NCBI RefSeq assembly: GCF_016653355.1
Contig: NZ_NHSK01000074.1
Coordinates: 8,178 to 72,177 of the forward strand
Direction of reading: 5' to 3'
DNA length: 64,000 bases
Source: Rhodoplanes elegans
Lineage (GTDB): Bacteria; Pseudomonadota; Alphaproteobacteria; Rhizobiales; Xanthobacteraceae
Below, piece by piece: positions 7,905 through 60,256 of the stretch; within the stretch, counting starts at the first letter, position 1, and every line of letters starts with the position of its first letter. A program made the position numbers and the translations under genes. The notes beneath the pieces are model-generated. The model searched no databases and was not told the DNA's origin. It saw only the letters and a program-made list of their open reading frames with translations.

Positions 7905-8210
7905 TCACGCTGCATCGTTGGGATCGAACGGGTCGCACACCACCGCGCCGAGGTGCTTCGACGGCGCCGGCAGGTCGACCACCGCGTCGCGCGCGATGGT
8001 GTCGATCGCGGCGCTTGGCCGGCAACGGAGGTTGGCCGGCCACATGGCCCGTCTGGCCCGCTGCACCTGCAGCCCGAGTGCGCGGCGATGGATCAGCGCA
8101 GGGTCCGCCTCGATCGGGATCACGTCGCCGTCGTGGCGGGTGGCTGGGTCTTGGTTGCGGCGCTGGCGAGCGAACCAGTCGAGCGGCTTGCGGACGATCT
8201 GTGCGGTCAT
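7905..8210 (-). CDS. Hypothetical early protein, 101 aa
   Basis: A 101-residue protein (MTAQIVRKPLDWFARQRRNQ) with basic and hydrophobic segments and no known domain. The start could be 8210, with GGGTGA just upstream, or 8222, overlapping the previous stop; I chose 8210. Confidence 0.6.
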   Translation of the reverse strand: MTAQIVRKPLDWFARQRRNQDPATRHDGDVIPIEADPALIHRRALGLQVQRARRAMWPANLRCRPSAAIDTIARDAVVDLPAPSKHLGAVVCDPFDPNDAA

Positions 8211-13799: not shown

Positions 13800-14654
13800 T
13801 CAGGACTCGCTGCCCGCGACCTCGACCGGATGACCGGACTCGTCGAGCGAGTACCAAGTCATCGGTGTGATGCCCTCGCGGCCGACGATGCCGGCCCAGA
13901 CGTGAGTAATCGCGCCGTCATCGTCACGGCGATCGAGATGCAACGCCGATCCTGCAACGCCCCGCACGCGGCCGTAGCGACCGCTCGCATGGGCGGTAGC
14001 CGTAGCGTGCATGGCCGAGGCCGCGCCCCTGTAGCCGGTGGCCGAGGCCGCGCCCCTGTCGCCGGTGGCCGAGGCCGCGCCCCTGTAGCCGGTGGCCGAG
14101 GCCGCGCCCCTGTAGCCGGTGGCCGAGGCCGCGCCCCTGTCGCCGGTGGCCGAGGCCGCGCCCCTGTAGCCGGTGGCCGAGGCCGCGCCGCTGTCGCCGG
14201 TGGCCGAGGCCGCGCCGCTGTCGCCGGTGGCCGAGGCCGCGCCGCAGTTGCCGGTGGCCGTTTCGCCCTCGATCGTTGCCCGCGACCACACATAATCCCA
14301 GGCGCGCCGCACGAGGTCGCTGATCGAGAGTTCGACGTTGATCGTGATCCGTGCCGCAGCGATCTTCGTGTCGCTGTCGTTGCCGTCCATCTCGCCGGAC
14401 AGCGTCACCTCGGCGTAGCGGTTGCTGGCTGGCGCGTAGTAGCCGAAAACGTCAAGCGGGTGTTCGCAGGCGTGGAAGCCCGAAGCGCAGGCTTCGATCT
14501 TGCCGGCGTGCTCGTAGGTCTTCCCGACCTCGTACTGATAGCCGCGGCAGCGAAGCTGCGCGTCGAAGCCCTTGAAGGCCGTGACAATATTCTCCACGGC
14601 CGGGGCGATTTCTGCGGTCGTGGCAGTCACCTCGGTCTTGCGTCTGCGAGCCAT
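13800..14654 (-). CDS. DUF7666-like protein with nine 9-residue repeats
   Basis: A 284-residue protein. The N-terminal domain (FKGFDAQLRCRGYQYEVGKTYE, ASGFHACEHPLDVFGYY) belongs to a phage family that I believe is DUF7666. Residues about 134-214 are nine copies of GAASATGxx, then a short Gly-rich link, and a C-terminal part (ITHVWAGIVGREGI, TWYSLDESG). The repeats resemble adhesin-type left-handed coils and probably form a solenoid. The function of the family is unknown; it is common in the early operons of such phages. Confidence 0.85.
   Translation of the reverse strand: MARRRKTEVTATTAEIAPAVENIVTAFKGFDAQLRCRGYQYEVGKTYEHAGKIEACASGFHACEHPLDVFGYYAPASNRYAEVTLSGEMDGNDSDTKIAAARITINVELSISDLVRRAWDYVWSRATIEGETATGNCGAASATGDSGAASATGDSGAASATGYRGAASATGDRGAASATGYRGAASATGYRGAASATGDRGAASATGYRGAASAMHATATAHASGRYGRVRGVAGSALHLDRRDDDGAITHVWAGIVGREGITPMTWYSLDESGHPVEVAGSES
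14013..14255. repeat. Nine tandem 27-base repeats
   Basis: Nine units of 27 bases (one reads GGCCGAGGCCGCGCCCCTGT plus seven bases) encode GAASATGxx in the minus-strand gene. Most variation affects the codons for the last two residues (DS, YR, DR). Such arrays expand and contract by slippage, so copy number probably varies between isolates. Confidence 0.97.
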
Positions 14655-15193: not shown

Positions 15194-15370
15194 TCACTTC
15201 AGCTCGATCAGGTCGGCGAGGAACTGAACTTCCTCGATCAGCTTCGCGCGCTCCCGGGCGTTCTTGGTGCGAGCGACCTGGGCGGCGACCCGGTCGTATC
15301 GGGACGCCAGCTCGAGGCGGGCGGCTTGTCCGTGGCGGCGGTTCAGTTCGTTGCGGCGGCGGCTGGTCAT
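15194..15370 (-). CDS. First gene of the leftward operon, 58 aa coiled coil
   Basis: A 58-residue basic helical protein (MTSRRRNELNRRHGQAARLE, ending EEVQFLADLIELK). GGGAG lies six bases before ATG 15370. It is the first cistron downstream of the operator-controlled leftward promoter, so it should be made earliest. The function is unknown; the shape suggests a small DNA-binding or anti-host factor. Confidence 0.7.
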   Translation of the reverse strand: MTSRRRNELNRRHGQAARLELASRYDRVAAQVARTKNARERAKLIEEVQFLADLIELK

Positions 15371-15403: not shown

Positions 15404-15432
15404 AATGTACACGAGGTGCACACGGATGTCCA
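15404..15432 (-). promoter_or_regulatory. Leftward early promoter
   Basis: Read on the minus strand, TGGACA (15432-15427) is separated by exactly 17 bases from TACATT (15409-15404). The same architecture drives the cro-like gene. A 17-base operator occupies most of the spacer. Transcription would begin near 15397 and serve the whole leftward operon. Confidence 0.7.
15406..15422. promoter_or_regulatory. Operator O1 (TGTACAC-N3-GTGCACA)
   Basis: An inverted repeat of two 7-base arms around three bases. Its reverse complement differs from the operator at 17020-17036 only in the central three bases. A weaker partner (TGTGCAT-N3-ATGTAAA) lies at 15440-15456, upstream of the -35 box. Confidence 0.75.
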
Positions 15433-15568
15433 GGGGGCATGTGCATGTCATGTAAAAAAATGTTCAGCAGACCTTGCCGCCGAGAGGCGGCTGGGTCATC
15501 TTTGATGCGCGTGTCGTTGCTGAAAGGCCGGGCGAAGACCTCGGCCGCAGGGCAGGCAGGCAAAAAGA

Positions 15569-15599
15569 AAGCCGGGCAGGGTGGCGACCCTCCCGGCTT
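15569..15599 (-). terminator. Terminator for leftward transcription
   Basis: A long GC-rich hairpin (AAGCCGGG-C-AGGGT pairing with ACCCT-CCCGGCTT around GGCG) is followed on the minus strand by TCTTTTTG. It would end transcripts running leftward from the repressor gene and insulate the early promoter. Confidence 0.7.
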
Positions 15600-15780
15600 C
15601 GATCGGGGGCGTGCTGAAAAGCCCCGACCGCTTGGTGTGTACGGTTTACATAGCGGCCGTTACAAAATCAAGCGTCTTCCCTTTCGGGTCAGCACAAATC
15701 GCCGGCATAGGGCGCGCACCTCGTCGTGTGTTGCGCCTCCGCCCGCGATAGAGGGCCGAACCCGCGGAGCATGACGTGGG

Positions 15781-15870
15781 GGGACGAGACCGGCGAGAGC
15801 CGGAGACGAGCGGTGCCGGCAACGGCACCTCGGAGCCCTCGATCCCACGAGGGTCCGGACCGGGCTCCGG
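15781..15870 (+). ncRNA. Candidate structured RNA with GNRA hairpins
   Basis: On the plus strand three hairpins follow each other: CCGGC-GAGA-GCCGG (15790-15803), GGTGCCG-GCAA-CGGCACC (15812-15829, extended by CGA with TCG outside) and CCCTCG-ATCCCA-CGAGGG (15836-15853), the last inside a GGAG/CTCC stem (15832-15868). The first two loops are GNRA tetraloops only when read on this strand. No promoter or terminator is defined, so the ends are uncertain and this could instead be the leader of the lipoprotein mRNA. Confidence 0.4.
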
Positions 15871-16166
15871 CTGGCGCCGACCCGGTGGGCGCGCCCGGCT
15901 GGCGGATCGGCTTGGCGATAAGCGCCCGCGTCAATGACAGACGTAAAGCCGACAGCGTGACCCCGGCTTCCCTTCCTCGACGAAGGTCGTTCGATCCGTC
16001 CGTGCTCGTGGCCTCGCCTAACTTCGGGGTTCAGAGGATGGCTTCGCCCTCGCTGGCGAAGCTATGCCCGGACCAGCAGCCTTCATCGAGGTTCAGGGGC
16101 CTTCTGAAGTTGCTTCTACCCTTACGAGAGTCTACGGTTGAGAGATCAACGCAGGGGTGGTTTATC

Positions 16167-16577
16167 ATGCGCAATGTGATTGCAATCGCTGCACTTTCGT
16201 TTTTCGTCGCGGCCGGATGCGCCGGCACGCCGACTGCGCCTCCTGTCGCAATCGCAGCCGAGCCGCCGCCGGCGCCGGTCGTCATCACGTCGAAGATGCG
16301 GTCGGCGATCGAGCGGGGCGCCAGGCAAGGCCTTAAAGACCCCGACAGCGCGCGATTCGGCGACATGAAAGCCTCCACGGGCAAGGAGGGCCTCGTCAAC
16401 GTTTGCGGTTGGCTGAACGCCAAGAACAGCTACGGCGGGTACACCGGCATGGGTCCGTTCACCGGGCAGCTTGCGGGCGAAACCTTCGTGCTGCTCGGGT
16501 CCGGGACGTTCGATTCGATCGGCGGGCGCGCTGTCTTGGAGATCTGCCGGACGCGCTATGGGCTGCCGCTCGACTAA
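16167..16577 (+). CDS. Lipoprotein in the immunity region
   Basis: A 136-residue protein with a lipoprotein signal peptide (MRNVIAIAALSFFVAAGCAG; lipobox before Cys 18) and an Ala/Pro-rich linker. The mature domain (LKDPDSARFGDMKA, VCGWLNAKNSYGGYTGMGPF) is shared with uncharacterised bacterial and prophage lipoproteins. It sits between repressor and early promoter on the opposite strand to both, as lysogenic-conversion genes do. It may alter the envelope or block superinfection; that is inference. Confidence 0.85.
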   Translation: MRNVIAIAALSFFVAAGCAGTPTAPPVAIAAEPPPAPVVITSKMRSAIERGARQGLKDPDSARFGDMKASTGKEGLVNVCGWLNAKNSYGGYTGMGPFTGQLAGETFVLLGSGTFDSIGGRAVLEICRTRYGLPLD

Positions 16578-16615
16578 TCGACACGGAGTCGGGCGATGCT
16601 GCCGTCGCGGGAGGG

Positions 16616-16951
16616 TCAGTGCTTGTCGTCCAGCACGGCCCGGGCGTGGCGGGCGATCTGCCGGCGCTGATCGGGTTCGGCTGACGAGAGCAGCATGTCG
16701 AGCTCATCCGGCTCGTCGGGATGCCGGGTCAGCAGCGTGATCGGGTCGGTGCCGTACACCGCGGCGAGCGCCTCGAGCAAGTCGCCTGTGTAATCCTGCA
16801 CGCCACGCTCGATTCTGGACAAGCTGGCGTGGCTGTAGTCGATCTTGGCGCCGACCTCCTCAAGGGTCATCTCGCGCTTTTCCCGCCACTCTCGCAGGTA
16901 GTTCCTGCGGCGGCAGACCCTTCGCCTCTTTGCACTAACCATCTTTGCCAT
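16616..16951 (-). CDS. CI-like repressor, short form
   Basis: A 111-residue XRE-family protein. The helix-turn-helix is MTLEEVGAKIDYSHASLSRIE (about residues 28-48). The C-terminal part (TRHPDEPDELDMLLSSAEPD) is acidic and lacks the S24 peptidase residues, so RecA-stimulated self-cleavage is not expected and induction must work differently. ATG 16951 is the first base of operator O3, and the matching promoter would start transcription there, giving a leaderless, self-regulated mRNA. ATG 16942 is an alternative start. Confidence 0.85.
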   Translation of the reverse strand: MAKMVSAKRRRVCRRRNYLREWREKREMTLEEVGAKIDYSHASLSRIERGVQDYTGDLLEALAAVYGTDPITLLTRHPDEPDELDMLLSSAEPDQRRQIARHARAVLDDKH

Positions 16952-16967
16952 GTGCACATGATGCACC
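16951..16967. promoter_or_regulatory. Operator O3 over the repressor promoter
   Basis: TGTGCAC-N3-ATGCACC, a slightly degenerate copy of the 17-base operator. On the minus strand it covers a weak -10 (CATCAT, 16963-16958) whose -35 (TGGATT, 16986-16981) is 17 bases upstream, as well as the repressor start codon. Binding should shut off repressor synthesis. Confidence 0.65.
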
Positions 16968-17009
16968 GGCCATCCCTGTGAATCCATGTCGCTGGGTGCA
17001 CAAGGGGGC

Positions 17010-17038
17010 TGGACGATCATGTGCACAGGGTGTACATT
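17010..17038 (+). promoter_or_regulatory. Rightward promoter of the cro-like gene
   Basis: TGGACG (17010-17015), 17 bases, then TACATT (17033-17038), nearly identical to the leftward promoter. The expected transcription start falls on or next to the A of the cro ATG (17046), and there is no ribosome-binding site, so the mRNA is probably leaderless. Confidence 0.7.
17020..17036. promoter_or_regulatory. Operator O2 (TGTGCAC-N3-GTGTACA)
   Basis: A perfect-arm relative of O1, in the same position relative to the -35 and -10 boxes. A lone half site (GTGCACA, 16996-17002) lies between O2 and O3. Confidence 0.75.
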
Positions 17039-17045
17039 ACGCGAC

Positions 17046-17267
17046 ATGACGAAGACCTCGAAGCCCAAGACGAAACTCGCGGCCTGGATGAAGGACAACG
17101 GCATTACGGATGCCGACCTCGCCGAAATGGTCGGTACGTCCCGCGAGCAGATCAACCGCGTCCGAAATGGCGTGAGCTCCCCGTCGTGGGGGCTTGCGGC
17201 CAAGCTGAAGGCCGCGACACGAGGCGTCATCACGGCTGACGACTTTCTGCCGGACGCCGCGGCATGA
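17046..17267 (+). CDS. Cro-like XRE regulator
   Basis: A 73-residue protein consisting of a single helix-turn-helix domain (ITDADLAEMVGTSREQINRV, then SSPSWGLAAKLKAAT). It is divergent from the repressor gene and should bind the same operators, tipping the switch to lytic growth as Cro does in lambda. Its start codon lies ten bases after operator O2 with no Shine-Dalgarno sequence. Confidence 0.85.
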   Translation: MTKTSKPKTKLAAWMKDNGITDADLAEMVGTSREQINRVRNGVSSPSWGLAAKLKAATRGVITADDFLPDAAA

Positions 17268-60181: not shown

Positions 60182-60256
60182 TGGCAAGCGCGGCAGGATT
60201 CGAACCTGCGCCCGCCGACGTCAAAGGTCGGTGCTCTACCGTTGAGCTACGCGCCT
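60182..60256 (-). tRNA. tRNA-Gln (anticodon TTG)
   Basis: A complete 75-nt tRNA including encoded CCA. It has a 7-bp acceptor (AGGCGCG with CGCGCTT, one G-U pair), D stem GCTC/GAGC, anticodon stem CCGAC/GTCGG with loop CTTTGAC (anticodon TTG), a 5-base variable loop, and T arm GCAGG-TTCGAAT-CCTGC. It reads CAA and by wobble CAG. It is not next to the integrase, so it is phage cargo rather than an attachment site remnant. Confidence 0.96.

Follow-up and report, generated by a model that had tools for sequence, protein, structure and literature searches.

A predicted lambda-like immunity region in a Rhodoplanes elegans prophage, with an operator pitch shared by related phages

INTRODUCTION

How phage repressors switch specificity without breaking the switch that they operate is an old question. 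In phage lambda, the cI and cro genes are divergent, three OR sites and three OL sites (the latter at the leftward promoter) serve as 17-bp operators, and the OR sites are 23 to 24 bp apart. CI activates its own promoter from OR2, which lies at about -42 of that promoter; the cI mRNA is leaderless; and CI has a cleavable C-terminal domain. The locus described here, from Rhodoplanes elegans, has a predicted lambda-like layout that recurs in other phages, also with other operator sequences. An initial annotation of the window (the whole 64,000-nucleotide stretch of DNA analyzed) had placed one 17-base operator at three promoters with identical geometry and read the three sites as a complete, compact immunity switch. 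One layout that carries several operator sequences, each paired with its recognition helix, would make specificity rules and the role of spacing testable on natural variants, and the immunity groups of many uncultured phages would become readable from sequence.

RESULTS

A prophage-like element carries divergent repressor and cro genes

The window covers a 63,106-bp element once and 894 bp of it again. The element is present as two tandem copies within a 218-kb scaffold; 2 positions differ between the copies across the 63,142 bp compared. Judged by its genes for integrase, RecE-like exonuclease, terminase, portal, tape measure, and endolysin, which accompany ParB-like and helicase genes, the element is a lambda-like prophage. 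The integrase lies close to one end, and att-like cores flank the element inside the bacterial scaffold. The immunity region, at 15.2 to 17.3 kb, runs in the order leftward promoter/OL, lipoprotein-like open reading frame (ORF), repressor, OR, and Cro, and its scanned neighbors are phage-type genes. The repressor and cro genes are divergent, with predicted operators between them and at the leftward promoter (Table 1).

Table 1. Predicted features of the immunity region (positions in the window)
Feature	Position	Strand	Basis or remark
First leftward ORF	15194-15370	-	58 aa, without family match
Leftward promoter -10 box TACATT	15404-15409	-	Sequence
OL1 operator TGTACACGAGGTGCACA	15406-15422		Perfect motif match; motif-model rank 1
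Leftward promoter -35 box TGGACA, 17-bp spacer	15427-15432	-	Sequence
OL2 operator TGTGCATGTCATGTAAA	15440-15456		Motif-model rank 3; 34 bp from OL1; pair kept in relatives
Lipoprotein-like ORF	16167-16577	+	
Repressor gene	16616-16951	-	111 aa, XRE-type helix-turn-helix (HTH) plus two C-terminal helices
OR3 operator TGTGCACATGATGCACC	16951-16967		2 mismatches; motif-model rank 4; register kept in 20 of 22 loci
Repressor promoter -10-like CATCAT	16958-16963	-	Sequence, alignment
Repressor promoter -35-like TGGATT, 17-bp spacer	16981-16986	-	Sequence, alignment
OR2, half-degenerate operator ATGTCGCTGGGTGCACA	16986-17002		Motif-model rank 68; right half-site regularly placed in relatives
cro promoter -35 box TGGACG, 17-bp spacer	17010-17015	+	Sequence
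OR1 operator TGTGCACAGGGTGTACA	17020-17036		Perfect motif match; motif-model rank 2
cro promoter -10 box TACATT	17033-17038	+	Sequence
cro gene	17046-17267	+	73 aa, HTH protein; predicted leaderless mRNA

The operator motif is rare in the genome and ranks the same sites first

Sites of the type TGTRCAC-N3-GTGYACA had been reported at 15406, 16951, and 17020. All three are present, the first and last as perfect matches and the one at 16951 with two mismatches. The possibility that the three 17-mers are functionless chance palindromes draws on the ordinary motif count in the window. Allowing up to three mismatches gives 7 matches where 4.14 are expected, a count that is reached in 19 of 100 shuffles; matched this loosely, the motif does not exceed chance in the window. 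In the 6.54-Mb genome at up to one mismatch, however, the motif occurs only at the two perfect sites, in both tandem copies. A looser motif at the same tolerance found the four strong sites of each copy and four scattered places, and its reversed control pattern gave 7 matches.

A motif model was trained on 125 sites of 42 loci from other phages, with this phage left out. Its top four sites in the window were 15406, 17020, 15440, and 16951, at 23.0, 22.75, 20.7, and 19.6 bits, and the fifth-ranked site scored 11.2 bits. The ranking of 15440 identifies it as OL2. Midway between OR3 and OR1, the site at 16986 scored 0.26 bits, its right half perfect and its left half lost. Two more sites, 15440-15456 and the half-degenerate 16986-17002, had been missed in the initial annotation. 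Since the training sites were themselves chosen by spacing, the spacing evidence given below rests on motif counts and on three of the four motif-free searches (all but the one with fixed geometry) rather than on the model. Spacing and promoter registers are also conserved, and the chance reading, to which we give practically no credence, is already contradicted by the genome-wide and family data.

Operators overlap the promoters in two different geometries

The strong sites are two in OL and two in OR, where OR3 and OR1 are clear and OR2 is a half-site. OL1 and OL2 are 34 bp apart, as are OR2 and OR1, and OR3 and OR2 are 35 bp apart. The boxes of the proposed leftward and cro promoters, TGGACA-17-TACATT (minus strand) and TGGACG-17-TACATT, are present, but the operator does not exactly fill the spacers as had been described: it begins 4 bp past the -35 box and runs into the -10 box, whose first four bases, TACA, are also the last four of the operator. 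The site at the repressor gene covers the CATCAT -10-like hexamer as proposed, but it includes only the first base of the start codon (A, 16951), and the geometry there is unlike that at the other two promoters; the three are not identical. Measured from the predicted repressor start, the center of OR2 lies 43 bp upstream. This puts the site directly ahead of the repressor -35 box and near the position that lambda CI uses for activation.

Spacing and registers are conserved in related phages

Repressor homologues were found, besides that of the source genome, in 16 of 391 genomes of its family, 19 of 397 of its order, and 2 added by a class-wide search among 385, as well as in 8 phage records and at 80 viral-contig loci; the named matches include Nitrobacter winogradskyi, Pseudolabrys, and Kaistia. 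Merging near-duplicates reduced 123 loci with a placeable gene to 107 unique ones, our own included. An alignment was required: single-sequence repressor scans of genome contigs and viral contigs returned no relatives. The exact promoter-plus-operator pattern had no match in viral contigs, and a plasmid search at E 1e-6 gave no match. Because the alignment that fetched the relatives included four proteins from known motif-bearing loci (L015, L017, L024, and L034), the fraction of relatives that carry arrays is inflated; the spacings are less affected.

At up to one mismatch, TGTRCRY-N3-RYGYACA occurs 131 times in the 107 loci (own included), compared with 1.2 times in shuffles. The only spacings between 12 and 120 bp seen at least twice at this tolerance are 33, 34, 35, 68, 69, and 70 bp; at up to two mismatches, spacings of 16, 36, 78, 81, and 88 bp also appear, two or three times each. 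Pairs of motif sites are present in 42 of the 106 other loci, and 64 have no array of the motif. Of the three named phage loci examined, PBC5 (L033) and RHph_I1_23 (L035) are without the motif at up to two mismatches.

Registers were counted in the 22 loci, our own among them, that have a scored OR pair. The repressor ATG begins on the last base of OR3 in 20 of them (the exceptions are L051 and L078), and a TTGAC-like box (at least 4 of 5 matches) stands 10 to 11 bp before OR1 in 21. Such a box stands at that distance before OL1 in 32 of 34 loci. The best OR2 right half-site lies 34 to 35 bp from OR1 in 19 of the 22, and by this measure OR2 is a regularly placed yet half-degenerate site. A Cro ORF follows OR1 in every locus except L067 (21/22), starting 7 to 12 bp past OR1 in 20; in L062 a GTG at 3 bp was taken as the start, and an ATG lies at 9 bp. 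From these site-to-start distances and those between -10 box and ATG, leaderless mRNAs are predicted for both repressor and cro.

Taken together, sites, spacing, and registers in other phages strongly support a predicted immunity switch in which the leftward, repressor, and cro promoters share a single type of operator. As first described the switch was incomplete, since OL2 (15440) and the weak OR2 (16986) belong to it as well, and the conserved 33- to 36-bp pitch is more telling than the switch in that first form.

The pitch recurs with unrelated operator sequences

Four motif-free searches were run for operator pairs or arrays. With no fixed motif or spacing, 25 short spacings were obtained, of which 17 were 33 to 35 bp. 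When the best palindrome pair of each locus was taken, it was spaced 33 to 36 bp in 10 of the 11 motif-family loci that had a pair (42 examined) and in 10 of 15 among the other loci (64 examined); shuffling produced 0.2 and 1.4 pairs per round, respectively, and none at 33 to 36 bp in 10 rounds. A four-site search with fixed geometry succeeded at 20 of 106 loci, own included (one of the 107 was dropped for too short a flank), and in 1 of 530 shuffled sets. The weakest five of these 20 (L101, L047, L015, L105, and L124) each hold at least one chance-looking pair.

Among 26 previously unused loci, the pair was spaced 34 to 35 bp in 6 of the 8 that had one, although three of the six (L164, L170, and L172) are near-copies with nearly identical sites; shuffles yielded 0.1 pairs per round and none at 33 to 36 bp. 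On the same 26 loci the motif model found 33- to 36-bp pairs in 6 and 67- to 71-bp pairs in 2, along with other spacings (78 bp, for example, three times), and shuffles gave no pairs in either range. The operator types recovered differ widely in sequence and include GTCACA, GTTGCC, CTTTC, and AATCAC.

These data bear on an alternative in which the operators are real but each dimer binds alone, the 33- to 36-bp pitch being set by promoter positions and not by contact. Promoter boxes and the repressor start codon constrain where OR1 and OR3 lie, and this alone could fix the 68- to 70-bp distance between the two. OL2 and OR2, by contrast, lie outside any -10/-35 spacer and yet keep 33 to 36 bp from their neighbor, with several unrelated operator sequences. 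The restriction-modification controller C.Csp231I also argues against this account. There, two palindromes with an 18-bp spacer stand 33 bp apart center to center, and binding of the second dimer depends on the length of the spacer, not its sequence, which is explained by DNA looping back (PMC4321490). We consider independent binding unlikely. The commonness of the pitch, seen beside the spacer-length dependence of C.Csp231I, suggests by analogy that adjacent dimers may touch one another.

Operator sequence follows the repressor recognition helix

Across 41 loci, operator similarity correlated with similarity of the repressor recognition helix at r = 0.59 and with that of the rest of the HTH domain at 0.26, a contrast carried by a small number of loci with another type of operator (7 of the 8 hand-entered ones). 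The partial correlations were 0.55 and -0.09, respectively, and none of 999 permutations reached 0.55. The 41 loci are 34 of the motif family and 9 added by hand, minus L040, whose operator was mistyped, and L106, which has gaps. Non-motif loci with 33- to 36-bp pairs entered from two motif-free searches (4 of 10 and 4 of 6); L170 and L172, which nearly duplicate L164, were omitted, and one of these eight, L179, shares the motif type of the family. In the motif family, a Ser at residue 43 of the helix is associated with A at half-site base 4 (mean 0.575, n = 15, versus 0.196, n = 14; p = 4e-4; 29 of 43 rows parsable). The sequence comparison thus indicates that the operator follows the recognition helix rather than the remaining HTH domain.

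This pattern is also what speaks against Cro or a host factor, rather than the repressor, as the main reader of the sites. Cro is an HTH protein whose gene stands close behind OR1, and in phage PY54, Cro binds a single site adjoining the repressor gene (PMC4488713). But the operator tracks the repressor recognition helix, down to residue 43 in the motif family, and within this genome the sites are restricted to the prophage, which counts against a host factor. We regard this possibility as very unlikely. Because the pitch recurs with unrelated operators and the operator tracks the recognition helix, the layout is conserved while the predicted specificity changes.

DISCUSSION

A model for the switch

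Our preferred reading, held with good confidence, is of an immunity region from a lambda-like temperate phage, with five places at which the 111-aa repressor binds as a dimer, all of one 17-bp palindromic operator type. We infer from the arrangement of sites how operator binding, cooperativity, activation from OR2, start sites, the part of Cro, and looping would fit together. Repressor on OL1 and OR1, across the -35 and -10 boxes, would block RNA polymerase at the leftward and cro promoters, and in that way early lytic genes would stay off. A dimer on the weak OR2 could contact polymerase and stimulate the repressor promoter, in the way lambda CI acts from its own OR2. Since OR3 sits on the -10 box and start codon of the repressor gene, filling it, whether with surplus repressor or, after induction, with Cro, would switch the repressor off. 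Neighboring dimers may touch as the DNA between them is folded back, and the two C-terminal helices perhaps make the contact.

Looping between OL and OR is suggestive only, and the phasing data are unconvincing. OL1-OR1 distances gave no signal at a helical period of 10.5 bp. A period scan of the first 19 loci, three of which were picked differently or not at all by a second site choice, returned 10.32 bp (0.0005 of jittered sets were as strong); this period and phase gave p = 0.055 on a second set of 20 loci, and all 39, with the scan, p = 0.005.

Relation to known systems

We regard the switch as a variant of the kind found in lambda and N15, with sites spaced much as in C.Csp231I (33 bp). 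At 34 to 35 bp, the pitch in OR is about one helical turn more than in lambda, and two OL sites were found here as against lambda's three. The telomere phages N15, phiKO2, and PY54 have a switch (immB) with a divergent repressor and cro, as here, and for PY54 leaderless cI and cro mRNAs have been mapped (PMC4488713). Their operator sequence differs, however, and their prophages are linear plasmids, whereas the present element has an integrase and att-like cores at its ends. C.Csp231I, like the repressor here, is a small HTH protein with extra C-terminal helices, and its 33-bp pitch is close to the 33 to 36 bp of the phage family and the 34 bp between OL1 and OL2; C.Csp231I serves a restriction-modification operon with two sites of the sequence CTAAG-N5-CTTAG, whereas the genes scanned around this repressor are phage-type. 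In the literature covered (titles and abstract openings, subscription journals lying mostly outside it), we found no description of the operator family, of a 33- to 36-bp pitch in phages, of the OR3 start-codon register, or of operator exchange on one layout.

More broadly, temperate phages of Hyphomicrobiales and their relatives may share one chassis: five operators at a 33- to 36-bp pitch, leaderless repressor and cro mRNAs, and a short repressor that lacks a cleavage domain and bends the DNA back on itself as dimers. Joint change of recognition helix and operator, with pitch and promoter registers unaltered, would then give rise to new immunity types, and OL and OR might loop across the repressor gene. 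We see this as an even prospect.

The repressor protein and induction

The predicted repressor structure (mean pLDDT 85.5, low at both ends) consists of a five-helix HTH and two more helices at 83-90 and 93-109. A Pfam search of the 111-aa protein at E up to 1 returned HTH families and one weak DUF2524 line, with no cleavage (S24) domain, a difference from lambda CI. Because no such domain was found, prophage induction would probably not proceed via RecA-stimulated self-cleavage, which raises the question of how a prophage is induced when its repressor is without a recognizable cleavage domain.

Little was drawn from fold and structure searches because they returned mainly the HTH domain. Compared with the C.Csp231I structure, the repressor gave Z 9.4 and an rmsd of 5.9 over 87 residues, a match that is weak beyond the HTH. 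A profile of 45 repressors against PDB matched 3lfp (C.Csp231I) over positions 16-101 (E = 0.0021); stronger profile matches cover mainly the HTH. The same profile matched 5d4z, a Salmonella temperate phage repressor, weakly over positions 16-105 (E = 0.0043), and both of these matches extend past the HTH. We take 5d4z to be the repressor of Salmonella phage SPC32H; this Salmonella repressor is controlled by an antirepressor.

Tandem prophage copies

The lambda-like prophage is present as two tandem copies that differ from each other at 2 positions. A 24-bp att-like core lies at each junction, and a scaffold gap of 100 N precedes copy 1. Either the strain is a double lysogen with its prophages in tandem, or the arrangement is an artefact of the assembly.

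Features of the prophage and its contig
Feature	Position	Strand	Remarks
Tandem prophage copies, junctions and gap	contig positions 7951, 8178, 71284, 134390		covers window 1-64000 and rest of contig
Repeat-bearing leftward ORF	13800-14654	minus	matches phrog_4433, family of unknown function
Small lipoprotein-like ORF	16167-16577	plus	matches phrog_2320, family of unknown function
tRNA-Gln, anticodon ttg	60182-60256	minus	within prophage

Immunity region and leftward transcript

Among relatives carrying a homologous repressor gene, 34 loci were scored against shuffles for a stem of at least 6 bp near the 5′ end of the predicted leftward transcript. Such a short hairpin, downstream of the leftward operator OL1, was found at 17 loci (for example, L105, L077, and L051), versus 2.25 expected. 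A GGAG-like ribosome site lies on its 3′ arm in many loci. Compared by eye, the first leftward genes of the relatives are apparently unrelated. In the R. elegans prophage, no stem of at least 6 bp was found near the 5′ end of this predicted transcript.

In another relative, L197, all three operator sites between the repressor and cro genes (OR1 to OR3) score well; they are spaced 35 and 34 bp apart and, counted from the repressor start, lie at 29 to 98 bp. Its middle site, OR2, differs from the half-degenerate OR2 that is usual.

OL and the repressor gene flank the lipoprotein-like ORF, which is convergent with that gene; a possible role in lysogenic conversion or exclusion is a guess. Weaker matches of the phrog_4433 ORF are tail-fibre-like, and it contains an in-frame tandem repeat (14012-14260; 9.2 copies of a 27-bp unit).
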